Below are positions 1 through 25,986 of a stretch of DNA of 27,833 nt, in pieces (within the stretch, counting starts at the first letter, position 1; every line of letters starts with the position of its first letter). Under the pieces are notes generated by a model. The model searched no databases. It saw only the letters and a program-made list of their open reading frames with translations, and was not told the origin of the DNA. The translations under genes and the position numbers were made by a program. Source of the DNA: a virus. Location of the stretch: positions 1-27,833 of the IMG/VR virus record IMGVR_UViG_3300044985_000394. The stretch is one strand, 5' to 3'.

Positions 1-717
1 GGATATCCATGCGATATGGAGGATTTACAAAAAATTGCAACTAAATATAATATTCCATTGATTGATGATGCAGCACATAGTTATGGTTCAACGTATAGAG
101 GTTTTATTATAGGTGATTGTAAATATTCTAATTTCACAATGATGAGTTTTCAAGCAATTAAACACTTGACTTCAATTGATGGTGGAGCTTTATTTTGTCA
201 AAAAGAATCTGATTATGAAAGAGGAAAACTTCTTAGATGGTATGGTATTAATAGAGAAACTTTAAGACGTGATATGAGATGTGAGGAAGAGATTTTAGAG
301 TTTGGTTATAAATATCATTTGAATGATGTCTGTGCAACTGTTGGTTTAAATAATATGAGTTTAGCTGATAAAAATGTTGAGAGATGTAGAGAGAATGGTA
401 TATTCTTTGAAAAAGAATTAAGGAATATAGAGGGAATAACACTTACTCAAACAAGTGTTGACAGATTTTCTTCATATTGGTTATTTACAATCCTAGTTGA
501 AGATCGAGCATCATTTGTTCGCAAGATGGAAGCTAAAGGTATTCACGTCTCCAGAGTTCATGAAAGAAATGATATACATGACTTTGCTAAAAAATATCAA
601 TGTGACTTACCTGTGCTTGATTCAATTATAGATGATATGGTTTGTATCCCTTGTGGTTGGTGGGTTACAGATGAAGATAGAGAATATATTGTTAGGGAGA
701 TTGAGAGAGAATGGTAA
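1..717 (+). CDS. DegT/DnrJ/EryC1-type sugar aminotransferase, 5' end outside the window
   Basis: The open frame runs in from the left edge (reads GYPCD before the first in-window Met at 16), so the N-terminal third is missing. Motifs of the PLP-dependent DegT/ArnB/PseC family are visible: IDDAAHS (Asp that contacts the PLP pyridine nitrogen), then SFQAIKHLTSIDGGAL, where the Lys is the expected PLP-binding residue, and a YKYHLNDVCATVGL block matching the usual GYN-R-ND-AA-G-Q segment. Family members transfer an amino group to a keto-sugar nucleotide to make aminodeoxysugars. It heads a string of glycosyltransferase and sulfotransferase genes, so it probably supplies an unusual sugar donor for them. 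The stop overlaps the next start by 7 nt. Family assignment is strong; the sugar made cannot be told. Confidence 0.9.
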   Translation, partial: GYPCDMEDLQKIATKYNIPLIDDAAHSYGSTYRGFIIGDCKYSNFTMMSFQAIKHLTSIDGGALFCQKESDYERGKLLRWYGINRETLRRDMRCEEEILEFGYKYHLNDVCATVGLNNMSLADKNVERCRENGIFFEKELRNIEGITLTQTSVDRFSSYWLFTILVEDRASFVRKMEAKGIHVSRVHERNDIHDFAKKYQCDLPVLDSIIDDMVCIPCGWWVTDEDREYIVREIEREW

Positions 718-1319
718 TGAAATGCGAATATGGTTGTAACAAAGAAGCTGAATATTTTTTAGAATTTAAGACGACTATTAATAAATGGTGTTGTAGTGAT
801 CATTTTAATAAGTGTGAAGAAGTAAGACAAAAAAATTCTAATTCCAATAAAGGTGAAAAAAATCATTTCTATGGAAAGAATCATACAGAAAAATCTAGAA
901 AGCAAATATGTAAATCTCTGATTGGTAAAAACTCGGGAAATGAAAATCCTTTCTATGGAAAGAAACATACTAAAGAAACTAGATTAAAAATAAGTATTTC
1001 TTGTACTGGAAAAAATTTATTACATGAGAATCCTAATTGGAAAGGTGGATTATCATTTGAAGATTATTGTATGACTTGGTCTGATAAAGAATTTAGATCC
1101 TTTATAAAAGAAAGAGATGGACATAAATGTTTAAATCCCATGTGTTCATACAAAGATCCCTTTGATATTTGTTTACATCATATTAACTATAATAAAAAGG
1201 ATTGTGATCCAAATAATATTATAACTTTATGTAGAAGTTGTAATTGCTCTGCTAATTATAATAGAGAGTGGCATAAATCTTGGTATGAAGCAATCATGCA
1301 TAAAAGGAGAGTAATATAA
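711..1319 (+). CDS. HNH homing endonuclease with NUMOD3 DNA-binding repeats
   Basis: This is a free-standing mobile nuclease. From N to C it has: a Cys/His cluster (C5, C9, C27, C28, H31, C35) that may bind zinc; two to three NUMOD3 repeats (NHFYGKNHTEKSRKQI at about 51-66, NPFYGKKHTKETRLKIS at about 79-95, and NPNWKGG); and an HNH nuclease domain with zinc ligands C140, C145, C174 and C177 around the catalytic LHHINY block (H156, H157). The family nicks or cuts DNA at a specific site to spread its own gene. It is wedged into the sugar operon using a start that overlaps the upstream stop (ATGGTAATG) and ends immediately before the next ATG, so it disturbs no neighbour. A second ATG two codons in could be the real start. 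Confidence 0.93.
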   Translation: MVMKCEYGCNKEAEYFLEFKTTINKWCCSDHFNKCEEVRQKNSNSNKGEKNHFYGKNHTEKSRKQICKSLIGKNSGNENPFYGKKHTKETRLKISISCTGKNLLHENPNWKGGLSFEDYCMTWSDKEFRSFIKERDGHKCLNPMCSYKDPFDICLHHINYNKKDCDPNNIITLCRSCNCSANYNREWHKSWYEAIMHKRRVI

Positions 1320-2024
1320 ATGGTAAATACATTTAAGCATTCTGGTGGCGGGGGTGATCTGATCTATGGTCTTGCCACTATGTATAATCTTGGTGGTGGA
1401 CTTCTTCATTTAAATATTGATAAAGATAAAAAATTTTATAGAACATTACTAGAAGCTCAACCTTATATAAAATATTTAACTTATCATAGTCTTCTTGCTA
1501 AAGATTGGAGAGTATTTGCTATTGATTATGACCTTGATAAATTTAGACAACAACCTTTTCATAGTTATACAATATTAGAATGTCATGCGATGGCATTTAA
1601 ATTAAATTTTGATTTAACAAAACCCTGGTTATTTAATGTTGAACCAAATCATGTTGCTGATATTGTTATTAATGATACCGGAAAGATAAGATGGGAAGGT
1701 GTTACTATTGATTGGGAACAGTTACGTGGTTATGAAGATAGAGCTGTTTTCGTAGGTCTTGATATTGAGTATAAAAACTTCTGTAAAAATAGAAACTATA
1801 AAGTTGAAAGATATATTATTAAAGATGCTATGGAGTTTGCTCAAATAATTAAAGGATCAAAACTATATTTAGCAAATCAATCAACAGGTCTTGCAATAGC
1901 TGAAGGATTGAAGGTTCCTCGGGTTGCAGACTTATATTTGGGTAGATCGAAACAATATCCCAAAGGAAATACAGGTCATTATAAATTAACTAAAGATTTA
2001 ATAGGGAGATATCTGAATGGGTAA
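1320..2024 (+). CDS. GT-B-like glycosyltransferase (heptosyltransferase/GT9-like)
   Basis: The 234-aa product starts with HSGGGGDLIYGLATMYNLGGG, which resembles the N-terminal glycine loop of ADP-heptose:LPS heptosyltransferases (usually a G-D-ilxxlPxi pattern). Its C-terminal half contains IIKGSKLYLANQSTGLAIAEGLKVPRV, similar to the donor-binding segment of GT9 (I-x-x-a-x-l-x-i-g-x-d-S-G-x-x-H-l-A-x-a-l-g-x-P), but with AEG where the catalytic or donor His region normally lies. It is shorter than bacterial GT9 enzymes (about 320-350 aa), so it may be a reduced version. It lies in the glycan-modification operon; the ATG follows the homing endonuclease stop directly, with AAAAGGAGAG as ribosome binding site. 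Confidence 0.62.
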   Translation: MVNTFKHSGGGGDLIYGLATMYNLGGGLLHLNIDKDKKFYRTLLEAQPYIKYLTYHSLLAKDWRVFAIDYDLDKFRQQPFHSYTILECHAMAFKLNFDLTKPWLFNVEPNHVADIVINDTGKIRWEGVTIDWEQLRGYEDRAVFVGLDIEYKNFCKNRNYKVERYIIKDAMEFAQIIKGSKLYLANQSTGLAIAEGLKVPRVADLYLGRSKQYPKGNTGHYKLTKDLIGRYLNG

Positions 2025-2640
2025 AGTATTTTTAGTTTTTGGACCAGAGAGTTCAGGAAATCATCTTACATCATTATTATTACAGAAAATGGGATGCTAT
2101 TGGGAAGAACCTCAAAAGTTAAATATAGATTCATTCTTAAGAGGTGAGTGTGAGTTAAAAGATATTACAGATAGTTCAAATATTGTTTTAAGGAGAAGTA
2201 TTCCTTATGAGAGAGAATGGTTTGATCCAAAACCTGTTGGTTTAAAATTTCTTGATCTTGGTTATAGAATGTATACTGTTATTCTACAAAGAGAATGGAT
2301 GGCGACTATGTTGTCTAACTATTATCATAGATCACTAACAGTTGAGGAAGCATGGGATACCCTAGTTAAAGCAGAATTACATATTGCAGAATATTTGAAT
2401 ATACTTAATCCATTCTATATTTTAAACACATCAGCTTTAATGAAAGATCCTGAACCATGTATAAAAGGATTAGAAATATTTACAGGATTGAAGTGGCCAA
2501 AAGATATTCCCTATGATAAATATATTTACGATTCTGATATTGGAAGACATCAACTATTTATAGATCATGGATTTAATTCTATTGATAGAATGGAGCATAG
2601 AAAATATATGACAAAACCAAGACCATTGGTAAAAAGATAA
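2017..2640 (+). CDS. Sulfotransferase-like P-loop protein
   Basis: The N-terminus reads VFLVFGPESSGNHLTSLLL (residues 4-22), a P-loop-like strand-loop-helix as in PAPS-dependent sulfotransferases, where this loop binds the 5'-phosphosulfate. A second segment, ILQREWMATMLSNYYHR (about 89-105), fits the position of the 3'-phosphate-binding R-x-x-x-S helix, with Arg and Ser present. This would transfer sulfate from PAPS, or a related group, to a hydroxyl of a glycan. The start overlaps the upstream stop by 8 nt and the stop overlaps the next ATG by 1 nt, so it is translationally coupled. It could also be a nucleoside kinase-like P-loop protein; a nearby clear sulfotransferase supports the present call. 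Confidence 0.55.
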   Translation: MGKVFLVFGPESSGNHLTSLLLQKMGCYWEEPQKLNIDSFLRGECELKDITDSSNIVLRRSIPYEREWFDPKPVGLKFLDLGYRMYTVILQREWMATMLSNYYHRSLTVEEAWDTLVKAELHIAEYLNILNPFYILNTSALMKDPEPCIKGLEIFTGLKWPKDIPYDKYIYDSDIGRHQLFIDHGFNSIDRMEHRKYMTKPRPLVKR

Positions 2641-3308
2641 TGTGTATTATATCACATAAGTATAAGTTTATATTTGTAAGAGTTAGAAAAACAGCTAGTA
2701 CGAGTATGCACGTAGCATTGTCAAAATTTTGTGGTCCGTTAGATATCATTGCTCATATTGGAGATATAGATCAATTAGAATCGAAAGCAGAGCAAAACAA
2801 CTGGGGGTATTTACCAAGTAAACATCCTGTATTTTATAACCATATTCCTGCATTTCGTGTAAGAGAAATGATAGCAGAACAGGATAAAGAAATCTGGAAC
2901 AACTATTTTAAATTTTGTTTTGAAAGAAATCCTTGGGATAAAACGATATCCCAATATTATTTTCATCGTCAAAAAGGTAATCATAGTAGAGAAGATTTAC
3001 ATAAATTTATAATGACTAACTATCTCTCTCATTTTTCTGACTGGAGAATATATACAGAAGAAGATAAAGATGATGATACAATACTTGTTGATAAAATATT
3101 TAAGTATGAAGAGATGGAAAGCTCATTTGAATATTTACAAGACATTCTAAAACTACCTGAAAAAATAGTCATGCCTGAAAAAAGATTTAAAGGATGGACT
3201 AGAAAAGATCATCGTCATTATAGAGATGTTTTAACGAATGAAGAGAAAGATCAAATAGCAAAAATATTTAATAAAGAAATAAAGGAAATGGGATATGAAT
3301 TTGATTGA
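2640..3308 (+). CDS. Sulfotransferase family 2-like protein
   Basis: The 222-aa product has both PAPS-binding signatures of the Golgi-type carbohydrate sulfotransferase fold. The 5'-phosphosulfate loop is FIFVRVRKTASTSM (residues about 10-23; family form F-x-x-x-x-K-t-a-s-T-S). The 3'-phosphate motif is FCFERNPWDKTISQYYF (about 92-108; family form v-R-n-P-w-d-R-x-v-S-x-y). Such enzymes sulfate sugar hydroxyls using PAPS. The preceding gene seems to be a more distant relative, and an alpha/beta hydrolase follows with a 14-nt overlap. The product probably acts in the cytoplasm of the infected cell on a glycan or glycosylated protein; the acceptor is unknown. Confidence 0.82.
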   Translation: MCIISHKYKFIFVRVRKTASTSMHVALSKFCGPLDIIAHIGDIDQLESKAEQNNWGYLPSKHPVFYNHIPAFRVREMIAEQDKEIWNNYFKFCFERNPWDKTISQYYFHRQKGNHSREDLHKFIMTNYLSHFSDWRIYTEEDKDDDTILVDKIFKYEEMESSFEYLQDILKLPEKIVMPEKRFKGWTRKDHRHYRDVLTNEEKDQIAKIFNKEIKEMGYEFD

Positions 3309-3930
3309 AGTAAATTTGGTTGATTCTGATACTCTTCTTGTATCTTTTGGAGGATTTGCTCTTTATGTTGGTATGCCAATATCTGAGTTTAAAAGAGTTA
3401 TGACTCCACTTAATGTCAATAAAGCATTTTTAATTGATAAGGATAGATGTTGGTATTATAAAATTATGCAAGATGTGAAACATGAATTAAAAGAATTAAT
3501 TTATCATGTGAATCCGAAGTATACAATATTTTATGGATGTTCTGCAGGAGGATATGCTTCAATATTATATGGTTTATTATTAGAAGTTGATAGAGTTATG
3601 GTATTTCAAACACAAACATTTTTAAGTGAAAAGTATAGAAAAAAATATAAAGATCAAAGATGGGAAACTGAAGCTCATGAAGCACAAAATTATGCCAAGG
3701 AAGATTATCTAGATCTATGGAATCATGATAAACAATGTAAGACAGTTGTAGAGTTATTTTACTGTGAAAACTTTTATCATTCAAAAATACATGCTGATTT
3801 ATTTTACAAAAAAACTAATTATTTAAATGTTATATTAAATAAATATGAGTGTGAAAGTTATCCACTAGCAAGAAACTTAAAAAATAAAGGTGAATTGTTA
3901 TCAATATTCCAAGATAGAATGGGAGAATAA
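3295..3930 (+). CDS. Alpha/beta-hydrolase-like protein
   Basis: The 211-aa product has a nucleophile elbow YGCSAGGYAS (Ser83 in a G-x-S-x-G-G setting) preceded by a predicted strand (KYTIFY), plus an early LLVSFGG strand-loop where the oxyanion hole usually sits. A late HSKIHADL stretch (about residues 160-167) is a candidate for the catalytic His. Proteins of this kind near capsule or glycan genes often add or remove acyl groups. The start overlaps the sulfotransferase by 14 nt. It is short for the fold, so it may be minimal. The exact substrate cannot be read; a role in trimming or acylating the same glycan is inference from position. Confidence 0.6.
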   Translation: MNLIEVNLVDSDTLLVSFGGFALYVGMPISEFKRVMTPLNVNKAFLIDKDRCWYYKIMQDVKHELKELIYHVNPKYTIFYGCSAGGYASILYGLLLEVDRVMVFQTQTFLSEKYRKKYKDQRWETEAHEAQNYAKEDYLDLWNHDKQCKTVVELFYCENFYHSKIHADLFYKKTNYLNVILNKYECESYPLARNLKNKGELLSIFQDRMGE

Positions 3931-3931
3931 T

Positions 3932-4975
3932 ATGGTAGTACAAAGTGATAAATTTCATTTGAATGACTTTCCTTTAACTGTTGACAAAGCAATAGTTTTG
4001 ACATCTTGGGATGGTCATAGATTATTTCTTAAACAGACTCTTGAAAAATATATGCAGACAGGTGCTTATGTATTATGTAGTTATGACTGTAAAGGAGAGT
4101 TTCCTAAACCTGATGTTTTAAAGATTCCTCATTCCTGGGTATTTAAACATTCTACTTATGGAGCAGATAAGAGAAATGGATGGTTATGGAATATTGTTTA
4201 TGCTTCTGGAGTTTTATCTAGATTTAATAATCTTAAAGTTGTCTTCATTGGTAATGGAGATTGTATTTGGGATAACCCAAATGGAATAAATGATATTATA
4301 AAATTATTGGGTAGCGATTGTGATATGATGGCATCCTCAAGTAATGGTATTATTCATACCTGCAGTGTTATGTTTAAAGCAAATGTATTTCATAGACTTG
4401 CAGATTATATTGCAGAAACTTTAAAATATAATATACCAAAATCATATAGTCCAGAAGTTGTTCTACGAGATTTCGTTAAACATCATAATATTAAAAATAA
4501 GGCGGCATCAATTCAACCCATGTTTCCTTTTGATAATAGGTACAAGGGAATAGATCATTATAATGCATATAATCAAGATAGCACGTGGCAAAGAGTTTTA
4601 GGATTTAGAAATTTAGGTGCTGAACATAAACAATGTCCAATAGAACATTTAGAACCTATTCCTAAAAAATATATAGATTTCGATTTCAATTATTTTACAA
4701 AACATGAACAGTTGCTACATCAATATTATAAAACAAATGATAGAAGATGGTTATATAGATACTGGGCAGAAGGTGAAGACTCATATTGGAATCGAAGATA
4801 TTATCCAATTGAATATTATGGAAATGAAGTTTTAACTGATGATTCAAAGAGAAAAGAACTAGGACCTCCGTCAGAAAGACTAAATCATTTTATTAGAAAA
4901 GAATTTCAATCGTTTATTTTAAAAGATAATGAATATCATAAAAAATGGAAAGACGTTATAGAAGGGACTGAATAA
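3932..4975 (+). CDS. GT-A-like glycosyltransferase, NGDC-motif paralogue 1
   Basis: I chose the ATG at 3932 rather than the one at 3890: it lies 1 nt after the upstream stop, with a GGGAGA site just before it, and gives 347 aa. An N-terminal VLTSWDGHRLFLKQTL strand-helix is followed by a short strand VVFIGNGDCIWDNP at about residues 103-116, where NGDC sits in the position of the metal-binding DxD of GT-A enzymes. The C-terminal part is rich in Trp, Tyr and His. The next gene is a clear paralogue with the same order (TS-x-x-G-x-R/H-x-FLK, then NGDCI). Probably both transfer sugars within the same glycan. A canonical DxD is absent, so activity is not certain. Confidence 0.55.
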   Translation: MVVQSDKFHLNDFPLTVDKAIVLTSWDGHRLFLKQTLEKYMQTGAYVLCSYDCKGEFPKPDVLKIPHSWVFKHSTYGADKRNGWLWNIVYASGVLSRFNNLKVVFIGNGDCIWDNPNGINDIIKLLGSDCDMMASSSNGIIHTCSVMFKANVFHRLADYIAETLKYNIPKSYSPEVVLRDFVKHHNIKNKAASIQPMFPFDNRYKGIDHYNAYNQDSTWQRVLGFRNLGAEHKQCPIEHLEPIPKKYIDFDFNYFTKHEQLLHQYYKTNDRRWLYRYWAEGEDSYWNRRYYPIEYYGNEVLTDDSKRKELGPPSERLNHFIRKEFQSFILKDNEYHKKWKDVIEGTE

Positions 4976-5844
4976 TGACAATAACTAGAGAGATATTAAA
5001 GGATAAAAAAATATCTAAAAAAGATCGTGCGTATTATGCAGATGTTTTAAAGGGTTATGAAAACTGTGATAAATGGGCAGTTAAGGCATTGAAACCATTA
5101 GGAATTTTATTAACATCACATCCTGGAAATAGACCATTCTTAAAAGCATCTGTTGAATCTCATAAGAAACTTGGATATTGGTTAGCAGTTGTTTATGATA
5201 ATTATTGGGATCCCATTCACAAGTCAGCTACATTTGATTTACTAATGCCAAAGAGAGAAGTCTTCGATGAAATTGATACATTTATTATTTCAAGATATCA
5301 AACTTGGGGTGGAGTGTTATATCCCTATTTTTGGTGTTTGAGATTTGGACTTCAAACTATGGGAGCTTTTGAATATGTCTACTGTGCTAATGGAGATTGC
5401 ATATTAGAGAAACCAGAAAATTTTGATCAGTTGTTAGATATGATGGGAGATGCTGATATATTCGGAGTTGGTTGGGAAAAAAATAATAAGAGACCTCTAT
5501 TTAATACAACAGGATTCATTGCCAAGACTACTGCTATTAATGCTATGATGAAACACTTTCAAGATCATTTAATCCCTTTAGCTAACTATGAAAAGTATGC
5601 TCAACAAATGGGTAATACAGAAGCACGTTTTGCTAAAGCTATTTTAGAGTTGGGTTTGAAATGTGTTAAACCAAAAGAGAATCCATTTAATACACAAGTA
5701 TGGAAACCTGGTGTCGGAACTTGGTATAAGACTGTGGGTTTTAGACACATTCACGGTGAGTATAATTATTTAATGAGATATGGAAATAAAGAGGACATCC
5801 CTTGGAATTATATTGATCAAACTTATTTAAAAAGAAAGAAATAA
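4975..5844 (+). CDS. GT-A-like glycosyltransferase, NGDC-motif paralogue 2
   Basis: The 289-aa product has the layout of its upstream neighbour: ILLTSHPGNRPFLKASVESHK near residues 43-63, a VYDNYWDP segment, then VYCANGDCILEKPENF with NGDC at about 139-142, followed by a Gly/Thr-rich strand (FNTTGFIAKTTAINAMMKHF). The shared motif and adjacent position point to an old tandem duplication followed by divergence; paralogue 1 has a longer C-terminal region. It starts on the TAATG of the previous gene, so the two are coupled. This is the last gene of the operon; a short spacer separates it from virion genes. Glycosyltransferase is the best reading but rests on fold-level motifs only. Confidence 0.55.
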   Translation: MTITREILKDKKISKKDRAYYADVLKGYENCDKWAVKALKPLGILLTSHPGNRPFLKASVESHKKLGYWLAVVYDNYWDPIHKSATFDLLMPKREVFDEIDTFIISRYQTWGGVLYPYFWCLRFGLQTMGAFEYVYCANGDCILEKPENFDQLLDMMGDADIFGVGWEKNNKRPLFNTTGFIAKTTAINAMMKHFQDHLIPLANYEKYAQQMGNTEARFAKAILELGLKCVKPKENPFNTQVWKPGVGTWYKTVGFRHIHGEYNYLMRYGNKEDIPWNYIDQTYLKRKK

Positions 5845-5847
5845 ATA

Positions 5848-5870
5848 AGAACAAAATACAAAAGGGAATA
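5848..5870 (+). repeat. Intergenic repeat, copy 1 (AGAACAAAAT core)
   Basis: The 23-nt stretch starting AGAACAAAAT and ending GGGAATA recurs at 6517-6539 with about three differences. Both copies lie in short spacers flanking the same small fibre gene. In copy 2 the purine-rich end works as a ribosome binding site for a downstream ATG; in copy 1 no start codon follows at the right distance. It could be a duplicated translation signal or a promoter-proximal element. Confidence 0.45.
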
Positions 5871-5895
5871 TAACGACTAGAGAGGTTTCTATTAT

Positions 5896-6495
5896 ATGTT
5901 AAGAGATAATATTATAAGAGGTGGCGGAGTTACTTCCAATCTTGTGTGGAAAGGACCTTGGGGTGATAGTACATCTTATATTATAAATGATCTAGTCGAA
6001 AATGATGGCGATTCTTATATAGCAATAGCTGCGCACACTTCAACATTTAACGATGAACCAGGTGTTGGTGTTAATTGGCAACTATATTGGGACTTGTTTG
6101 TTGAGGGAGGACAAGACGGTGTAGATGGAGTTGATGGGGTTGGTGCATATACGAGTTGCGATAAATTAATTCTCGAAATGGAGATGGCATTTAAAACTGC
6201 ATATCTATGTCATTATAAAACGTTTACATATAATGTTAGTAAGCAATTGACTGATATAGAGATATGGACTGATTCAACAGCAACTATAAAGTTATTTCAT
6301 AAAGATTTAACATATGATGTTGAAAAGAATTTAATTCAAATAGATCTCACAAGAATTTCAGACGGATCACTTTTAACTAGCGTATTTAATTACAATGCGT
6401 CGAAACAATTAATATCAATAGAAAGAAGTGGTTACTGCTCTTGCAGTTCATCAAGTAGTTCAACTTCAAGTTCATCCTCGTCCAGTTCAACATAA
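5896..6495 (+). CDS. Small virion fibre-like protein with collagen-like patch and poly-Ser/Thr tail
   Basis: The 199-aa product has three parts. Residues about 15-70 (VWKGPWGDSTSYIINDLV...YIAIAAHTS...NWQLYW) match the aromatic pattern of carbohydrate-binding CBM5/12-type modules common in phage fibres. A short Gly-x-Asp stretch (GQDGVDGVDGVG, about 73-84) looks like a collagen-like trimer linker. A middle domain of short repeats (FTYNVSKQLTDIEIW, LTYDVEKNLIQIDL, FNYNASKQLISIERS) may be a small beta-prism. The C-terminus is an unbroken Ser/Thr tract of about 18 residues starting after YCSC. The Ser codons are mixed (AGT, TCA, TCC, TCG), so the tract is kept at protein level. It is the first virion gene after the glycan operon and shares its Ser tract type with the 961-aa baseplate protein. 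Confidence 0.68.
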   Translation: MLRDNIIRGGGVTSNLVWKGPWGDSTSYIINDLVENDGDSYIAIAAHTSTFNDEPGVGVNWQLYWDLFVEGGQDGVDGVDGVGAYTSCDKLILEMEMAFKTAYLCHYKTFTYNVSKQLTDIEIWTDSTATIKLFHKDLTYDVEKNLIQIDLTRISDGSLLTSVFNYNASKQLISIERSGYCSCSSSSSSTSSSSSSSST

Positions 6496-6516
6496 CCATA
6501 ACGAAGTTAAAAACAT

Positions 6517-6539
6517 AGAACAAAATGAAAAGGGGAATA
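6517..6539 (+). repeat. Intergenic repeat, copy 2 (AGAACAAAAT core)
   Basis: Second copy of the element at 5848-5870. Here the AAAAGGGGAATA end sits 6-7 nt before the ATG at 6546 and can serve as a Shine-Dalgarno sequence for the mini-ORF there. Confidence 0.45.
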
Positions 6540-6545
6540 GTATCT

Positions 6546-6596
6546 ATGGATAAAAAAGATACAATGAAAGTAAATCATAAGGTTAGGATTAAATAA
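6546..6596 (+). CDS. Possible 16-residue mini-protein or translational leader
   Basis: ATG with a good purine-rich site (AAAAGGGG) opens a 16-codon frame for a very basic peptide (MDKKDTMKVNHKVRIK). Its TAA overlaps the ATG of the YkgJ-like gene (TAATG), and that gene has no strong ribosome binding site other than the AAGGTTAGG inside this frame. The simplest role is a translational coupler delivering ribosomes to the next gene; a functional peptide is possible but unsupported. Confidence 0.4.
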   Translation: MDKKDTMKVNHKVRIK

Positions 6597-7033
6597 TGAA
6601 TTGTGGAAATTGCACCGAATGTTGTAGACAATTAAATATACCAGAAACCGATAGCAAAGAAGGTGATCTTTGTCAACATTGTGAAGAAGGTGTTGGTTGT
6701 AAGATATATTCTGAAAGACCGGAATCTTGTAGAATATTTGAATGTTGTTGGAAACAGATGAAAATTGCAGGAAAAGAATTAAGACCAAATGTATGTGGAG
6801 TTTTATTTGAGAAATGGTCTGACAAAGTAATAGTTGGTTCAACAGAAAACAAATTATCAAAATTAATTCTTAATCAAATAGAATATTTTAAAAACGAAGG
6901 TATCTCTATTTTAATAGTAAATCAAAATGAAAAAACGAGAACTTTTTATGTAGCAGATGGTCATACGGTAGAATCTGTTAAGGAGGAGATTAAATGGCGG
7001 CACCAAGCTATACAGAAGACCTTACAGATATAG
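6596..7033 (+). CDS. YkgJ-like cysteine-cluster protein
   Basis: The 145-aa product begins CGNCTECCRQL and continues CQHCEEGVGCKIYSERPESCRIFECCW. This is the C-x2-C-x3-CC...C...GC-x-IY-x-x-RP-x-x-C-R-x-F signature of the YkgJ (UPF0153, Fe/Zn cluster-binding) family. The metal and reaction of the family are not settled; it has been linked to zinc or iron-sulfur binding. The C-terminal half (VCGVLFEKWSDKVIVGS... YVADGHTVESVKEEIK) is a small alpha/beta part. It is unusual to see it inserted between virion fibre genes. Its last 40 nt overlap the next CDS in another frame, and the next gene's strong AAGGAGG site lies inside it. Confidence 0.8.
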   Translation: MNCGNCTECCRQLNIPETDSKEGDLCQHCEEGVGCKIYSERPESCRIFECCWKQMKIAGKELRPNVCGVLFEKWSDKVIVGSTENKLSKLILNQIEYFKNEGISILIVNQNEKTRTFYVADGHTVESVKEEIKWRHQAIQKTLQI

Positions 7034-12756: not shown

Positions 12757-13275
12757 ATGCTACAAGGAGTTATTAATCAACCTGTATCTGAACACTTTAC
12801 AGTTTCAGATATCAATGGTAACTTAATAACAGGTATCGTTCCAGGAGCATTTACTTTATATGTATATAATCCAACAGGTAATGAAGTATCAGGTTCTGTG
12901 TCTGGATCAATTACAGAACTTGGAAGTGGAAATTATAAATATGCATTTACTCCAAACTCTGAGGGAACATGGTATGTAAATGCAACACACCCAACTTACT
13001 TTCCTTGGGGTAAAGCGGATGATGTTCAAATATTCAATGCAGACTTAACAATGATATATGATTCTGTAGAAAAAACTCTTGGTCTATCAAAGCATAATAT
13101 GTACATAGATAATCCAACATATGATGAGAGTGGGAATATGATTGCAGCAAGAGTAAGAACATATTCCGATAAAGCTTCTGTTGGAACAGTAAATAATGTT
13201 ATTGAAACTTATCGTATTGAAGCAGATGGAACCGAATGTGGTCAATTCACATATTGGAAACAGGTGGTGGAATAA
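12757..13275 (+). CDS. Ig-like virion protein
   Basis: The 172-aa product starts with a beta-sandwich-like domain (EHFTVSDINGNLITGIV...ITELGSGNYKYAFTP...GTWYVNATHP), an Ig-like/invasin-like pattern frequent in phage structural proteins. A second half (LGLSKHNMYIDNPTYDESGNM...VRTYSDKASVG... ECGQFTYWKQVVE) has the look of a conserved phage particle module. Ribosome binding site AAGGAGAGTAAT is strong. Its stop overlaps the ATG of the GIY-YIG gene (TAATG), so the nuclease uses its translation. Precise location in the particle is unknown. Confidence 0.65.
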   Translation: MLQGVINQPVSEHFTVSDINGNLITGIVPGAFTLYVYNPTGNEVSGSVSGSITELGSGNYKYAFTPNSEGTWYVNATHPTYFPWGKADDVQIFNADLTMIYDSVEKTLGLSKHNMYIDNPTYDESGNMIAARVRTYSDKASVGTVNNVIETYRIEADGTECGQFTYWKQVVE

Positions 13276-14102
13276 TGTTAATTTATAGATGCTTAAATCT
13301 AAAGAATGAAAAATGCTATATTGGTAAAAGTATATTTTCGTTAAATATTAGAATAAAACAGCATCTATGTGATATGGAGAAAAATAAATATAAATCTACA
13401 TTACATGACGCTTTAAGAAAATATAGTTCTGAAAATTTTTCTTGGGATATTCTATGGAAAGGAAATTGTTCAAAAAATTGGTTAAATGAATTAGAAAAAT
13501 TTTATATTTATTTCTTTGATTCTTTTAAATCTGGTTATAATATGACACAAGGTGGGGAAGGAGGTCCACTATGGACCAAAGAAAGAATATCTATTGAAAG
13601 AAGAAAATTAGCTGCTAAAAAAGCTTGTGAAAATAGGGATAACACTTATTTAAAAAATGGAATCTTTAAAAATATGACTATTGAAGAAAGAAGAAGAAAT
13701 ATATTAAAAAGAGATAATAGCTATTTAAAAGGTAGTAATAATCCCTTTTGTAAATTATCTGAAGAAAGAAAGAAGGAAATTATAGAGAAGGGAAATAAAA
13801 AACGACGTTTATATAAACCAACTAAAGAGACAAATTTAAAAATATCAGATGTTTTGATAGAGAAAGAATGTTTTGTTGGTAGAAAAAATCCAATGTCTAA
13901 AAAATATAAAATGGTATCGCCACAAGGAATTATTTTTACAGTTAAAGATGGTTTATTAAATTTTTGTAATGAAATGAATTTATCATTTTCTATGATAAGG
14001 AGAAGTTTAAAAAATAGCATAGAGGTAAGTTCTAATCAAAAAAATTTAAGAAGTGAGAAATCAAAAAGTACTATTGGTTGGAGGGCAATCGAATGTCAGT
14101 AA
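13275..14102 (+). CDS. GIY-YIG homing endonuclease
   Basis: I chose the ATG at 13275, overlapping the upstream TAA, not the longer in-frame start at 13236; this puts the GIY-YIG domain at the very N-terminus as expected. LIYRCLNLKNEKCYIGKS supplies the Y4 and Y15-I16-G17 signature, R26 and H30 fit the catalytic Arg region, and E72 or E74 in NELEKFYIYFF fits the metal-binding Glu. Then come basic linker repeats (NTYLKNGIFKNMTIEERRRNI, NSYLKGSNNPFCKLSEERKKEI) of NUMOD type and a C-terminal helix-turn-helix-like unit (SPQGIIFTVKDGLLNFCNEMNLSFSMIRRSL). It is a mobile element; its base composition is even more A-rich than its neighbours, suggesting separate origin. About 275 aa, typical for the class. 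Confidence 0.92.
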   Translation: MLIYRCLNLKNEKCYIGKSIFSLNIRIKQHLCDMEKNKYKSTLHDALRKYSSENFSWDILWKGNCSKNWLNELEKFYIYFFDSFKSGYNMTQGGEGGPLWTKERISIERRKLAAKKACENRDNTYLKNGIFKNMTIEERRRNILKRDNSYLKGSNNPFCKLSEERKKEIIEKGNKKRRLYKPTKETNLKISDVLIEKECFVGRKNPMSKKYKMVSPQGIIFTVKDGLLNFCNEMNLSFSMIRRSLKNSIEVSSNQKNLRSEKSKSTIGWRAIECQ

Positions 14103-18719: not shown

Positions 18720-21605
18720 TTGTTTACAGTAGATAACTTTTGGGACATATTCACTGCAGCAAGTGGAGAAACTGTAGATGGTATGACGGAAGTGCTTGAT
18801 TCCCTTGCCAAGGATGCTAAAGCTAAAGGTCAATTATATTTCGATTTTGTTCTTGGTGGAGCTCCTCCTACTAATGAAAATGATTGGTTACGTTTAAGAG
18901 CTTTTCTGCTTGACTGGTATGCATCACATCAAACTATTGGTTCAGCAACATCAAAAATAACAGACCCAAGAACTCTTTCTAATTCTGATATTGATGAGTT
19001 ATTTAGAAGTTTTGGATATAACTATTCTCCACAATTAAAAGGACATGATGAAAATCCCACTGATTTAAAAATTAATTTCTTTTTAGATCTTGTTAATTTG
19101 TATAAACGAAAAGGAACACCACAAGCTATTGTTGAAGTGTTACAATATTATGGTGTTACAAAAGTGGATGTATATGAGTTTTTTATAAAGTTAAAAAATG
19201 CAAATTCTTTAATTTTTGAAGGAACAGCAGTTGCTGGAACAACAACTAATCCTTCTAAACTTATATTTGAATATGAAAGATTAACTGCAGATGATCCTCA
19301 CTGGTTATATACTGAAGAACAAATCTTACAACTGCAACAAACAAATGATATTAACCTTCCTTCTAAAACTCCCTATTTAGGTGTTCGTCCAGTAGCTGCT
19401 ATTGATGGTGCTGAAATTGGTATTCTTATTCGACTTGTACAAGATCAATTTCAATATTATTTAGATAATGGAGTGCCACCAGAAGCAAATGCTGAAGTTA
19501 GTGAAATAGGTGAGGTCGTTTCTTTATTAGAACTCTATCTATCAGTTTTATATGTTTTTATTAAGCAATACAATGTTGGTCAAACTGGGGATAGTTTTAT
19601 ATGTTATGATGGAACTAGTTCTATAATAACTGACATAGTAGATGAGTTTGAAACTGCAACCACTAAACCAACTGTTAGAGCAGAGATTCTATCTGGTCTT
19701 ACAACATTTTATGATGGATTCACTAGAGAAAATCCTAGAAACTTTCTACAAAACAAGACAGATGCTGAAATGTTTCTAACTCTAATAAATCCTTCATTGA
19801 AAGCTTCATTGGACTCTACTACATTAACAGACTCTGAGATGCTATTTAGTTTAATGAAAGATCTATCAACTTGGGTTCGTATTAATCTTGGATATGGTTT
19901 TGTTAATATGGGATTCATTATGTTTGGTTTAGATTCATTTTTTGATGATCTTAAACCTGTTATTAATTTCTTCAAACCATATAGAGCAAGATTATTATTA
20001 CTTGAGTTATTACAAATAAGCAATCCTCTATTTAATACAATTATTGTTGAAGATGATCCTGAAGTTCCAAGAGTAGAATTTCCTATCTATGATTGGTTAA
20101 CAGCAAATGGAAATCCTTGTTGTACAGAAGAGAATATTGATTCAACTGGACCTTGTACAATTTGTTTAGAAGATTCAACAAGTAATTTATATTATGCAAG
20201 AGAAACTTATGACTGTGGTTCCTATCATGATATTGGTGCTGTATCAGATATAAGACAAACTGATTTCTTTCCATTCATAGAGGAAATACGTCATATATCA
20301 TTAGTATGTATTCCACCTGATTTGGATTCGACTTCTATTGTTTATAATGAAGTTCTTAATGGATCAATGGTTCAGGATGGTACGTCTACAATAATAGTAA
20401 CAGATTCTACTGCTGAAGTGGATGAATTAATTTATGAAGAAGTAACGACTGGAGGTTTTGCTAATTTTGATGGTGAACAGGGTGATCCTAGTGGTTATGT
20501 ATATGATCCTGCTGATGGAACTAGTGTTATCGCTACTCTTTATGAAAATCATCTATCTGGAAAGTTTGATTGTAAAACAGCATTTGATGCGGTTTTTATA
20601 CAAGTTTATAATACGAGTAGTTCGAGTAGCTCTACTTCTTCCTCAAGTAGTTCAAGTTCAAGCTCTATTTCATCAAGCAGTTCATCAACGTCAGCAGCAC
20701 CATCAGGATTTTTTATACCTTTAGATCAGGGAAATGCAGGAGGAAGTCATACAGATGTTTTTGATGATGGAACTTTTGTATATGCTACTGCTAGTGGTAG
20801 TGGTCTTCATAGTTATTCTGTTAATCCTTCTACAGGTGAAATTACTCATATAGATACAGATTATCAAGGTGTAGATAATTACCAGGGTGTTTGGGGAGAT
20901 GGTAATTTTATTTATGTTGCTGTCGGTACTGATGGTATAAAAAGCTATTCAGTAGACGGTAGTGGACTCTTAACATATATAGTAAACTGGCAGGATGAAG
21001 GTGGTACTTACTATGGTGTTTGGGGTGATGGAACTTATATTTATGCTGCTACTAGTCTTGGTATAAGAACTTATTCTGTAGATGGAAGTGGTATCTTATC
21101 ACATATAAGTTTAGTGGGTGGAGGTGGATTTTGTTATAGAGTTTGGGGGGATGGAACTTATATTTATGGTGCTCATTCGGGTATTGGAATTAGAAGTCAT
21201 TCTGTAGATGGAAGTGGAAACTTGACAGTCATAGATACACATAATCAAGGTGGGGGTTATTATGATGTTTGGGGTGATGGAAATTTTATTTATGTTGCTA
21301 CTTCTGAGGGTATAAGAAGTTATTCTGTAGATGGTAGTGGAAACTTAACATATATAGATACAAAAGATAATGTACCAGGCTGGTACAAGGGTGTTTGGGG
21401 TGATGGAACTTATATTTATGCTGTAGCAGAATTAGATGGTATATTAAGCTATTCTGTAGATGGTAGTGGAAATTTAACACATATAGATACAGATGATACA
21501 TATGCACCTTCTTCAACTGGTCATTATTTTAAAATTCATAAAGCTACGGGTTTTATTTATGTGGCAGGGTCAACTAGTGGAATGTATAGTTATGATATAA
21601 CTTAA
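18720..21605 (+). CDS. Baseplate tail-protein-I-like/poly-Ser/seven-bladed beta-propeller fusion
   Basis: Translation starts at TTG (18720) with AAGGGGAGA 8-9 nt upstream; no ATG fits better. The 961-aa product is modular. In the N-terminal part, INFFLDLVNLYKRKGTPQAIVEVLQYYGV (about 118-146) is the K-G-T-x-x-A-I-x-x-x-L-x-x-x-G hallmark of phage tail protein I/baseplate wedge proteins. A Cys-rich patch NPCCTEENIDSTGPCTICLED lies at about 462-482. An almost pure Ser/Thr linker spans about 632-658. The rest (about 663-961) is seven repeats of about 42 residues with V-WGDG-x-(Y/F)-IY-x-A and G-I-x-S-YSVDGSG cores, fitting a closed seven-bladed beta-propeller. Likely a baseplate protein that carries its own receptor- or glycan-binding head. 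Confidence 0.8.
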   Translation: MFTVDNFWDIFTAASGETVDGMTEVLDSLAKDAKAKGQLYFDFVLGGAPPTNENDWLRLRAFLLDWYASHQTIGSATSKITDPRTLSNSDIDELFRSFGYNYSPQLKGHDENPTDLKINFFLDLVNLYKRKGTPQAIVEVLQYYGVTKVDVYEFFIKLKNANSLIFEGTAVAGTTTNPSKLIFEYERLTADDPHWLYTEEQILQLQQTNDINLPSKTPYLGVRPVAAIDGAEIGILIRLVQDQFQYYLDNGVPPEANAEVSEIGEVVSLLELYLSVLYVFIKQYNVGQTGDSFICYDGTSSIITDIVDEFETATTKPTVRAEILSGLTTFYDGFTRENPRNFLQNKTDAEMFLTLINPSLKASLDSTTLTDSEMLFSLMKDLSTWVRINLGYGFVNMGFIMFGLDSFFDDLKPVINFFKPYRARLLLLELLQISNPLFNTIIVEDDPEVPRVEFPIYDWLTANGNPCCTEENIDSTGPCTICLEDSTSNLYYARETYDCGSYHDIGAVSDIRQTDFFPFIEEIRHISLVCIPPDLDSTSIVYNEVLNGSMVQDGTSTIIVTDSTAEVDELIYEEVTTGGFANFDGEQGDPSGYVYDPADGTSVIATLYENHLSGKFDCKTAFDAVFIQVYNTSSSSSSTSSSSSSSSSSISSSSSSTSAAPSGFFIPLDQGNAGGSHTDVFDDGTFVYATASGSGLHSYSVNPSTGEITHIDTDYQGVDNYQGVWGDGNFIYVAVGTDGIKSYSVDGSGLLTYIVNWQDEGGTYYGVWGDGTYIYAATSLGIRTYSVDGSGILSHISLVGGGGFCYRVWGDGTYIYGAHSGIGIRSHSVDGSGNLTVIDTHNQGGGYYDVWGDGNFIYVATSEGIRSYSVDGSGNLTYIDTKDNVPGWYKGVWGDGTYIYAVAELDGILSYSVDGSGNLTHIDTDDTYAPSSTGHYFKIHKATGFIYVAGSTSGMYSYDIT
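20745..21602 (+). repeat. Tandem coding repeats of the beta-propeller (about 126 bp unit)
   Basis: The codon block GTTTGGGG(x)GATGG recurs at 20889, 21018, 21141, 21267 and 21393 (spacing 129, 123, 126, 126 bp), with a second shared block TATTCTGTAGATGG(x)AGTGG about 65-70 bp later. First and last blades are the most diverged. Units remain similar at DNA level, which would allow blade gain or loss by recombination. Confidence 0.85.
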
Positions 21606-23991: not shown

Positions 23992-25986
23992 ATGGCTAAT
24001 GTTTCTCCGGGTGTATACACCAAAATTATTGATCTCTCTGCTTATGTGCAAGCTGTACCGTCAACCATTGGTTTTCTTTGCGGTTTTACACATAAGGGAA
24101 GAGATAACGAATTGATATTTTTGGGTTCAAGAGCAGAATTGATTTCTGAATTTGGTGAACCTAAAATTACCGATTTTGGAAAGAGTTATGGACAAGGTCC
24201 ATATGTAGCGTACAATTACTTAGGTGAATCGGGTGCATTATTTTGGATTCGTCTATTACCAGATGATGCACAATATGCTAACTTTAGAATTGATAGTTCA
24301 TTAAATACTGATGGAACTTCTTCAATTTCAATTACGTATGTTGATAGTTTAAATTCTATAGCAGAAGTTACAACAAATCTAGCAGCAGTTGGAGATACTA
24401 AACCAGTTGCATTTCTTAGACCAATTGGAAGAGGAGATTATTATAACGCTCTTGGAATAAGACTTACAGAGCATTCCAATCCAACACTTACTGGGGTTTA
24501 TGTTCTAGATGTATATGAGAAACAATCGGATGATGATGATGTTATTATTGAATCATTTGAAGTTTCTTTTGAACCTAAAGCTGTTGATTCAGCTGGTGAG
24601 TCTATTTTTATTGGATCAATTCTTGAAACATATTCATCTGTTTTAAGAGCAGATATGGAACTTGCAAGTGGTGATTATACAAGTGGTTATGAATTAGCAG
24701 TTAAAGAGTATGATAAAGAAATTGGAACTACAACTGTTGTCGATACTACTGCTGCAGCAACTATCACTGATGTTAAACAAGATTTCTCTGACTGGGAATC
24801 AGCAGCATCTCCAGCAGATTATGTTGTAGTTGCTAAAGATGGTAGAGGAAATGAAATCTGGGGTTGGTTAGGAGCTTCATCAGGAGTCGATAATGAAACC
24901 ATCAGTGTATTTAAAGAAAGAAGTCTTACTACACAGTCATGGAATGGTACATCAGAAGAAATAGCAGCATTTGATGTTAATTCCACAGTTACATATACAG
25001 TTAGACAGTCATATATAAATGTTGCTGATGCATTTAGTTCATCTGAACCAGTTCCTTTAAGAAAAGGAACTGAAGGATCACTGTGGATAGATGGTGCTCT
25101 TAATACTGATGATTCAGGACCTAATGCTCTATATTCAGCACCAACTCTACTTGAACAAGGATATACAGGTGTTTTAACAAATCCGAATACTGGAAATTAT
25201 GTAGATGAAGTATTGGATACTGAGAACATTTATTTTTCAATTGTATTTGATGCTGGTTATCCATCAGATACAAAAACAGCTATCAGTACACTTTGTACAA
25301 CCAGAAAGGATTGTATTGGAGTTCTTGATAATGGTGATAATGTATCAGTGACTACTGCGTTGGCAACACGTACAGAAAGTCATCCATTTAATAACTATTA
25401 TGTTTCATTATATGAATCATACAATAAAGTTTCTGATCCATTTACAGGTCAAGATATTTGGTTCTCTCCAATGTATCATATGGCATACCTGCTACCAAGA
25501 AATGATAATATTGCTGAACTTTGGTTTGCAGCAGCTGGATTCACTAGAGGTGCAATTGATAGTATTAAAGAGCTTAGATATAATCCAAGACTTGGGCAAA
25601 GAGATCAGATGTATCTAAAACAACTAAATCCAATTGTTCAATTTTCAGCTGGTTATGTCGTTTGGGGACAATTGACATCTCAAGCTAAAGCGAGTGCATT
25701 ACAGGATGTTAATATTGTAAGACTTGTTCTGTATTGTAAGAGAGCTCTTGAACAATTCTGTCGTTTCTTTATCTTTGAACAAAACGATCCTATTACATGG
25801 GGTGAAGTAGGTGGAGCAATAACAGAGTTCTTGGAAGTTATTAAGAACAAAAGAGGTCTTGATTCTTATTCTATTGAGGTTGGTGCAACCGATTATGAGA
25901 AGAAAACAAAGACCTTCCATGTTAATATCATTCTGCAACCAACCAGAGTGGTTGAGAAAATTGAGTTGAACTTTTTTATTATATAA
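23992..25986 (+). CDS. Contractile tail sheath protein
   Basis: The 664-aa product (T4 gp18 is of similar size) has both conserved ends of the family. The N-terminus SPGVYTKIIDLSAYVQAVPSTIGFLCGFTHKG carries the P-G-V-Y...D-x-S signature. The C-terminal domain (QNDPITWGEVGGAITEFLEVIKNKRGLDSYSIEVGATDYEKK... NIILQPTRVVEKIELNFFII) carries the beta-arms that interlock sheath subunits. Residues about 190-350 are a beta-rich insertion exposed on the tail surface in related sheaths. Subunits stack around the tail tube and contract on infection. No tail-tube gene follows; instead a terminator comes straight after, so the sheath is expressed as a separate unit here. GGAGG fixes the start. Confidence 0.95.
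   Translation: MANVSPGVYTKIIDLSAYVQAVPSTIGFLCGFTHKGRDNELIFLGSRAELISEFGEPKITDFGKSYGQGPYVAYNYLGESGALFWIRLLPDDAQYANFRIDSSLNTDGTSSISITYVDSLNSIAEVTTNLAAVGDTKPVAFLRPIGRGDYYNALGIRLTEHSNPTLTGVYVLDVYEKQSDDDDVIIESFEVSFEPKAVDSAGESIFIGSILETYSSVLRADMELASGDYTSGYELAVKEYDKEIGTTTVVDTTAAATITDVKQDFSDWESAASPADYVVVAKDGRGNEIWGWLGASSGVDNETISVFKERSLTTQSWNGTSEEIAAFDVNSTVTYTVRQSYINVADAFSSSEPVPLRKGTEGSLWIDGALNTDDSGPNALYSAPTLLEQGYTGVLTNPNTGNYVDEVLDTENIYFSIVFDAGYPSDTKTAISTLCTTRKDCIGVLDNGDNVSVTTALATRTESHPFNNYYVSLYESYNKVSDPFTGQDIWFSPMYHMAYLLPRNDNIAELWFAAAGFTRGAIDSIKELRYNPRLGQRDQMYLKQLNPIVQFSAGYVVWGQLTSQAKASALQDVNIVRLVLYCKRALEQFCRFFIFEQNDPITWGEVGGAITEFLEVIKNKRGLDSYSIEVGATDYEKKTKTFHVNIILQPTRVVEKIELNFFII

Follow-up and report, generated by a model that had tools for sequence, protein, structure and literature searches.

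Positions 1–5844 of a 27.8-kb stretch of viral DNA (IMG/VR virus record IMGVR_UViG_3300044985_000394, positions 1–27,833; here called the window) encode a sugar aminotransferase, predicted glycosyltransferases and sulfotransferase-like proteins. They make up the right half of a larger gene cassette, tentatively read here as a transferable system by which the phage glycosylates serine-rich proteins of its own fibres. The original prediction, made from the letters of the window, had described seven overlapping genes for building a modified sugar, with fibre genes following at once. The run of overlapping or abutting genes on one strand is as described, and a gap of 51 bp separates it from the fibre gene FIB1; it holds eight open reading frames (ORFs), however, rather than seven, an HNH homing endonuclease gene at 711–1319 having been missed. 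The transferase genes sit in a virion gene module, with FIB1 51 bp 3' of the last of them, GTA2, and the gene for the contractile-tail sheath (23992–25986) on the same strand. The features discussed below are:

1–717, + strand: AMT, sugar aminotransferase of the DegT/DnrJ/EryC1/StrS family (PF01041, E 5.7e-40; motif SFQAIK), 5' end cut by the contig end.
711–1319, + strand: HNH homing endonuclease with NUMOD3 motifs (NUMOD3, E 3.8e-17; PHROG homing endonuclease, E 1.7e-7).
1320–2024, + strand: GT9-like (heptosyltransferase-fold) GT-B glycosyltransferase, predicted from structural matches of an AlphaFold2 (AF2) model.
2017–2640, + strand: ST1, sulfotransferase-like P-loop protein (motifs GPESSGN and R92-x7-S100).
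2640–3308, + strand: ST2, Sulfotransfer_2 family (PF03567, E 9.2e-9; PHROG 3347, E 8.5e-9).
3295–3930, + strand: ABH, putative accessory alpha/beta hydrolase (GCSAGG motif alone).
3932–4975, + strand: GTA1, GT-A-type paralogue of GTA2 (identity to GTA2 and an NGDC motif).
4975–5844, + strand: GTA2, predicted GT-A-fold glycosyltransferase (AF2 model).
5896–6495, + strand: FIB1, short fibre with a CBM_5_12-like module and a C-terminal serine tract (PHROG tail fibre, E 6.1e-7).
18720–21605, + strand: 961-residue protein with a beta-propeller (Lactonase) C-terminal part (Pfam Lactonase, E 2.1e-6) and two serine tracts.

The GTA alignment, used as a query, picked up 25 viral loci that encode a GTA2 relative, and a GT9-like scan added one contig; L053, a contig of a metagenome-assembled genome (MAG) with an SPP1-type portal, came from the genome_contigs scan, and L079, with the core cassette minus CmcI, from the serine-tract scan alone. 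Cassette genes were profiled in 29 stretches, and setting aside the window (4.97 kb upstream of GTA2) and ten others with <7.5 kb upstream left 18 records. In 17 of these, AMT, an MT24 methyltransferase, GTA1 and GTA2 occur together on one strand, and this core persists in phages as distant from the window as 43% GTA2 identity. Fifteen of the 17 cassettes include a 900-residue fusion of GT9-like, methyltransferase and GT4 parts (G004 and G005, both cut upstream, are without it), and 15 a CmcI-type O-methyltransferase (E 3.1e-61 in L003). Sulfotransferase-like genes matching the ST1 or ST3 profile are found in seven, and the accessory genes (ST1, ST2, ABH, MT24b, GT9-like, protease) vary from cassette to cassette. 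Where two families occur in the same records, their pairwise distances co-vary (Mantel r 0.47–0.87 for 21 pairs; between 0 and 16 of 2000 permutations gave a value as high). The proposal that the genes form one pathway is well supported, because the co-occurrence check found the core genes of relatives together and not scattered, and because their distances co-vary. Before GTA1 stands either a second Methyltransf_24-type methyltransferase (12 of 17) or the GT9-like gene (5 of 17), never both, as if these were alternative decoration modules.

Five cassette genes shared with record G001 are under purifying selection, with ratios of non-synonymous to synonymous substitution (dN/dS) between the window and G001 of 0.31 for AMT, 0.21 for the GT9-like gene, 0.25 for ST1, 0.18 for GTA1 and 0.10 for GTA2, next to 0.19 for the sheath gene. 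In G001 (locus L003) the AMT and GT9-like genes overlap directly and no HNH gene lies at the junction, so that the HNH gene of the window is an insertion there and stands outside the pathway. ST2 and the hydrolase gene are also absent from G001, and ST2 recurs in G003 (53% identity). Promoter and terminator scans of positions 1–7000 gave no signal above shuffle level. Homing elements crowd the module, as a GIY-YIG gene lies among the virion genes at 13236–14102 in addition to the HNH/NUMOD3 gene; in relatives, LAGLIDADG inteins interrupt the AMT of L022 (3272–5500) and the fusion protein of L027 (1532–5446).

The link to serine-rich proteins comes from tracts defined as runs of at least 8 serine or threonine residues with at least 6 serines; such a run had to draw on AGY as well as TCN codons and to lie in a frame of 120 codons or more. 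A mixed-codon run of this kind, 16 residues long, forms the C-terminus of FIB1, whose CBM_5_12 match (E 4.5e-4) is below the cut-off; the 961-residue protein has tracts at residues 632 and 651. This second protein also combines a weak Tail_P2_I-like part (E 0.21) with its beta-propeller, which is built of repeated GVWGDG units. Counting without the short cassette loci L011, L012, L017, L025 and L026 and without G002, which is near-identical to the window phage, 17 of 23 cassette records have tracts, 599 in 1.12 Mb or 53.3 per 100 kb, a density swollen by a few records (167 tracts in G011, 87 in G004). Three of eight cassette-free sheath relatives have tracts, 16 in 0.78 Mb or 2.06 per 100 kb, about 26 times sparser, and 2 of 12 cultured-phage regions of 32–43 kb have one tract each; these cultured controls were hand-picked, and no cassette profile matches them at E 1e-3. 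Presence in long contigs alone (8/9 cassette against 1/3 cassette-free relatives; a further long relative, G030, was covered by the gene search) gives a weak Fisher result, p 0.13. Pooling the data (17/23 against 5/20, the latter being the eight sheath relatives and 12 cultured regions) gives p 0.002 with unequal lengths.

Position adds to this association. In 15 of 27 loci a first tract ORF opens on the GTA2 strand no more than 2.6 kb 3' of that gene; merging four loci that are 99.5–100% identical over GTA2 makes this 12 of 24 distinct ones. In L079, where it encodes an 831-residue protein, and in L024 the tract frame opens within 4 bases of GTA2. Elsewhere in nine long cassette contigs there are 29 tract ORFs in 852 kb, from which 0.09 would be expected per 2.6 kb. 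The enrichment after GTA2 has p about 3e-7 at 2.6 kb (12/24), 2e-6 at 1.5 kb (9/24) and 3e-4 at 5 kb (12/24), where the 2.6-kb limit was picked after the distances had been seen, and the test ignores the clustering of virion genes and lacks 2 kb of G018. The tracts are nearly pure serine, interrupted here and there by a lone N, L or K, for example. Their serine codons divide 555 AGY to 672 TCN, against 1965 to 4590 for the other serines of the same ORFs (seven records, mostly G011), and this mixture argues for selection for serine itself and not for repeat slippage. Tracts cover hundreds of residues in L053 and G011, and G011 encodes a 2553-residue protein with 64 tracts between two cassette methyltransferase genes (L044, 4515 onward).

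Serine tracts as such were dropped as predictors of the cassette. A scan of viral_contigs for alternating serine codons gave at least 80 loci. The tract lies in a frame of 120 codons or more in 37 of these 80, in a short spurious frame in 36 and between the two in 7; in the short flanks searched, cassette profiles were found at 3/37, 1/36 and 0/7, respectively. L068, which has no flank hit, lies all the same in the cassette contig G011.

Among the enzymes, the aminotransferase was correctly called. Even truncated, the AMT of the window scores 138.1 bits against PF01041 (cut-off 19.8), its orthologue in L003 scores 262.4, and the pyridoxal phosphate-lysine motif SFxxxK is found in 14 of 15 members including that of the window, the pattern having missed G018. 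The full-length L003 protein is nearest in the PDB to the putative aminotransferases 4zwv and 4xau, which we take to be AtmS13, and to CalS13 (E 1.1e-83 to 4.3e-73), the next group being ArnB-type (E 1.7e-40); the AMT of the distant cassette L053 has the same three relatives (E up to 1e-35). AtmS13 and CalS13, aminopentose aminotransferases, are the closest solved relatives of AMT and serve antibiotic sugars, and a passage of PMC10951976 has AtmS13 postulated to place the amine on a thymidine diphosphate (TDP)-4-keto-pentose. This closeness makes an amino-pentose product of AMT a lead, not a result.

The GT-B-like protein of the original prediction corresponds to 1320–2024, whose AF2 model, of moderate confidence (predicted local distance difference test (pLDDT) 67.6, predicted template modelling score 0.72), is closest to GT9 enzymes: 3tov at Z 12.8, WaaC at Z 12.4 and TibC, a protein heptosyltransferase, at Z 10.6. 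Interspersed among these matches are three chains of the plant NDH complex (Z 9.9–11.4), and 2-epimerases follow near Z 8. Neither this protein nor its L003 orthologue matches a Pfam family, and hence not Glyco_transf_9; the best PHROG match has E 0.14. Sequence and profile searches of the PDB returned no row or chance-level rows only for the GT9-like, ST2 and GTA proteins alike. In hhalign the GT9-like family is unrelated to the N-terminal part of the fusion, though both look GT9-like. The model is consistent with a GT9-like GT-B fold, and we label the protein GT9-like only.

The two proteins described as sulfotransferase-like differ in standing. ST2 belongs to Sulfotransfer_2 (36.2 bits, cut-off 22) and has the motifs RKTASTS and R96-x7-S104. 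ST1 matches no sulfotransferase or other Pfam family above cut-off and has no useful PHROG match, and two motifs, GPES[SA]GN and R-x7-S, kept in all four homologues with R92 and S100 invariant, weakly suggest a sulfotransferase-like protein. The hydrolase shows its GCSAGG motif but no Pfam or PHROG family above cut-off, a best PDB sequence match of E 0.39 and no relative in the viral_contigs scan or the clustered relative loci. The acylated sugar proposed from it is dropped, since the gene is seen only in the window and the call rests on a motif. The amino and sulfated sugar is supported at family level, and methylated should be added to the description, as methyltransferase families lie upstream in relatives, where the window is cut.

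The two GT-A-like proteins hold up, GTA2 through its model and GTA1 through paralogy. The AF2 model of GTA2 (alignment of 41 sequences, pLDDT 94.5) has a GT-A fold with a best Z of 13.8 and a root mean square deviation of 2.6 over 164 residues. Nucleotidyltransferases of the same fold reach Z 13.1, so that fold alone is no proof of transferase activity, and we regard GTA2 as a predicted GT-A-fold glycosyltransferase. Foldseek and VIA-align likewise put it in the GT-A fold and in no particular glycosyltransferase family, their lists supporting no claim of absence; its BFVD structural neighbours include giant-virus proteins at 8–15% identity. By sequence comparison GTA1 is a GT-A-type paralogue, 24% identical to GTA2 over 127 residues and with the NGDC motif in common; N[GS]DC is found in 39 of 40 GTA members, where the classical DxD was not seen. 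The GTA1 ORF opens at 3890, and the start is probably the ATG at 3932, the position equivalent to the start of the L003 relative. GTA1 and GTA2 match no Pfam family above cut-off and give no useful PHROG match, and tblastn against 50,697 INPHARED records gave no match for GTA1 or GTA2 (E 0.01) or for the upstream fusion (E 1e-5).

Hydropathy analysis found no transmembrane (TM)-like stretch in the eight proteins of the window and none conserved in the core families, where 1/40 GTA, 1/15 CmcI and 3/14 fusion members pass marginally; as a control, four window ORFs taken as membrane- or lipoprotein-like all pass. Non-conserved TM-like ORFs are present in the cassettes of G004, G005, G008, G009 and G014, and in G004 and G005 one of them, encoded on the opposite strand, has four segments. 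The core enzymes themselves appear soluble, which argues for a cytoplasmic acceptor. Within its cassette, at L016 1650–4672, G008 encodes three proteins that resemble a heptose-7-phosphate kinase (E 9.2e-30, fused to a cupin), a cytidylyltransferase and a dTDP-glucose-4,6-dehydratase (E 3.2e-65); the cassette of G014 has two epimerase/dehydratase-type proteins and a C-methyltransferase. These genes suggest that some phages bring their own donor-sugar synthesis, and the rest would draw on the host.

The cassette is accessory, either moving between phage types or being often lost, as it is found among virion genes that are often unrelated and is absent from relatives of the window phage by sheath. 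Searches of the available stretches with eleven virion proteins of the window gave close matches in G001, G002 and G018, and four in G019; short matches occur in G006, G007, G008 and G017, and none was found in G009, G012–G016, L053 or L079. The window sheath has distant matches in G003 (29%) and G011 (21%), and blastp gave weak S232 matches in L009 and L013. Beyond the cassette records, the sheath is 28–29% identical to those of the jumbo phages phiR1-37 and PBS1 and, among the best 80 of 233 matches, 62% identical to uncultured contigs of up to 277 kb. Twelve sheath-related records of 35–277 kb gave no GTA or DegT match, although the GTA profile detected 6/6 cassette records including the 29% member; these records may be incomplete, and absence is firmest for those of 102, 224, 248 and 277 kb. 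The GT9-like part of the fusion has a weak match in two of the 12, in G029 beside an MT24b-profile hit, and the sheath relative G024 has a weak MT24 hit.

Several other genes accompany the cassette. A radical SAM-family cluster (SPASM in L027) occurs at or near GTA2 in five loci that include the most diverged members (L026, L027 6475–7410, L028, L029 and L009 6397–7281). A papain-family cysteine protease lies between GTA1 and GTA2 in L010 (6998–7867), with cluster members in L009, L015 and L016, and a DUF1353 protein holds the same place in some loci (L010 7867–8262). Just upstream of two cassettes is a response-regulator and PAS protein (L033 2375–3304, profiled; L032 255–1181, same cluster). 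L053, filed as an uncultured bacterium MAG, carries a GroES-like gene and the cassette besides its SPP1-type portal and is a phage.

The original prediction left the target between the phage's own virion and host surface glycans. A virion acceptor is favoured by the position of the genes, the lack of conserved membrane proteins and the serine-tract link, with host surface or DNA as further possibilities. The fold that the GT9-like protein has in common with TibC, and the discovery of L079 through its serine tracts, also speak for the reading in which serine-rich fibres carry the glycan. Several observations weigh against serine-rich fibres as the acceptor. G019 has the cassette in 120 kb and no tract, and in all 6/23 cassette records are without tracts, the other five on stretches of 9.5–19 kb. 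G017, with the most diverged GTA2 (29%), is the one record of the 18 that lacks the other cassette genes. Only 1/37 real-frame tract loci, L079, has the core cassette in its flank, and of 80 sheath loci 11 have tracts, with three of the 11 belonging to cassette contigs. None of the ten serine-tract proteins compared from relatives (10/10) matches a virion family, so that their fibre nature is inferred from gene place. It is possible, if unlikely, that the cassette glycosylates sheath, capsid or ordinary fibre residues and that the tracts are mere flexible linkers sharing the virion module. Capsid and tail glycosylation is known in mycobacteriophages (Freeman 2023, as cited in passages of PMC11652166 and PMC12619734), and polyserine, according to a passage of PMC2386152, is a known linker joining modules of marine bacterial carbohydrases; FIB1 likewise joins a serine tail to a weak CBM-like module, and the tract-free cassette of G019 would fit a virion acceptor other than the tracts. 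Counter to a linker-only role, tract ORFs are enriched right after GTA2, and the tracts of L053 and G011 exceed the needs of a linker.

Remodelling of a host surface glycan (lipopolysaccharide (LPS), O antigen or capsule), for superinfection block or receptor change, seems less likely again. Sugar aminotransferases, GT9-type enzymes and methyltransferases are, as general background, typical of LPS loci, and the second PDB group of AMT is ArnB-type; yet the cassettes have no conserved flippase-like or multi-TM protein, and that of the window adjoins virion genes. We rate somewhat lower still the hypermodification of phage DNA with an oligosaccharide, for which the precedent is the jumbo-like phage YerA41, where PMC9023294 reports an apparently oligosaccharide thymidine substitution of about 1 kDa, a further point against a fibre acceptor. 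A PF00303-type enzyme is encoded in 4/12 cassette records, but PF00303 also covers plain thymidylate synthase, the other eight records, none rated complete, are without a match, and the cassette lies beside virion and not replication genes; the Tet_JBP profile matched neither the cassette records nor any control and is uninformative. A last possibility, that metabolic genes of host origin and without a shared function came together by chance, would fit the coming and going of accessory genes and is very improbable, being largely refuted by the conserved core, purifying selection and co-varying distances.

Under the favoured reading of a glycosylation cassette for serine-rich fibres, AMT would make a nucleoside diphosphate (NDP)-amino sugar, probably from an NDP-4-keto sugar, which the methyltransferases encoded upstream in relatives and, in some phages, the sulfotransferases would decorate. 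The soluble GT9/GT4 fusion, the GT9-like protein, GTA1 and GTA2 may then build up a short glycan on late virion proteins within the cytoplasm; as acceptor we favour serine hydroxyls of fibre proteins encoded close downstream (O-glycosylation). FIB1 and, second, the 961-residue protein are the candidate acceptors in the window. The phage might gain fibre stiffness, resistance to proteases or depolymerases, or altered adsorption. A fuller version, which we hold as doubtful, is that of a horizontally moving O-glycosylation system that covers mucin-like fibre domains of polyserine with an amino-sugar glycan, methylated and sometimes sulfated, using a GT-A family with two paralogous branches outside Pfam and PHROGs together with the GT9-methyltransferase-GT4 fusion, as a phage counterpart of serine-rich-repeat glycoproteins and giant-virus glycan coats. 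The original prediction is in sum partly confirmed in what it observed and partly supported in how it was interpreted.

Known systems share parts of this arrangement. The serine-rich repeat glycoproteins of the GspB/Fap1 type also have a serine-rich acceptor gene beside its own glycosyltransferase genes, whereas the present system is virus-borne and its serine runs are nearly pure, broken by single residues. Chloroviruses and mimivirus make glycans for their virion proteins; here the virus is bacterial, the enzymes differ and the system is known from its genes alone. Mycobacteriophage virion O-glycosylation (Freeman 2023, via passages of PMC11652166 and PMC12619734) resembles the present case in its phage transferases and in the virion acceptors that we propose, and differs in that here serine-tract proteins adjoin a cassette of several genes that comprises the aminotransferase, methyl- and sulfotransferases, GTA1, GTA2 and the fusion. 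Flavobacterium phage immuto (MW353176) encodes an AMT with 43.5% full-length identity, and its neighbours are annotated glycosyltransferases and a methyltransferase; the 21 kb examined gave no GTA-profile hit, a weak hit to the GT4 part (E 2.7e-5) and no annotated fibre gene. Among the matches listed from the open-licence PMC literature, none described this cassette or polyserine phage proteins that bear glycans.

If the favoured reading is true, some phages make sulfated or methylated amino-sugar glycans of their own and attach them to serine-rich fibres. Phage virion glycosylation would then have a specific acceptor and a candidate pathway that is nearly complete. The same reading would add a glycosyltransferase family outside Pfam and PHROGs and account for a part, at least, of the polyserine proteins seen in viral metagenomes.

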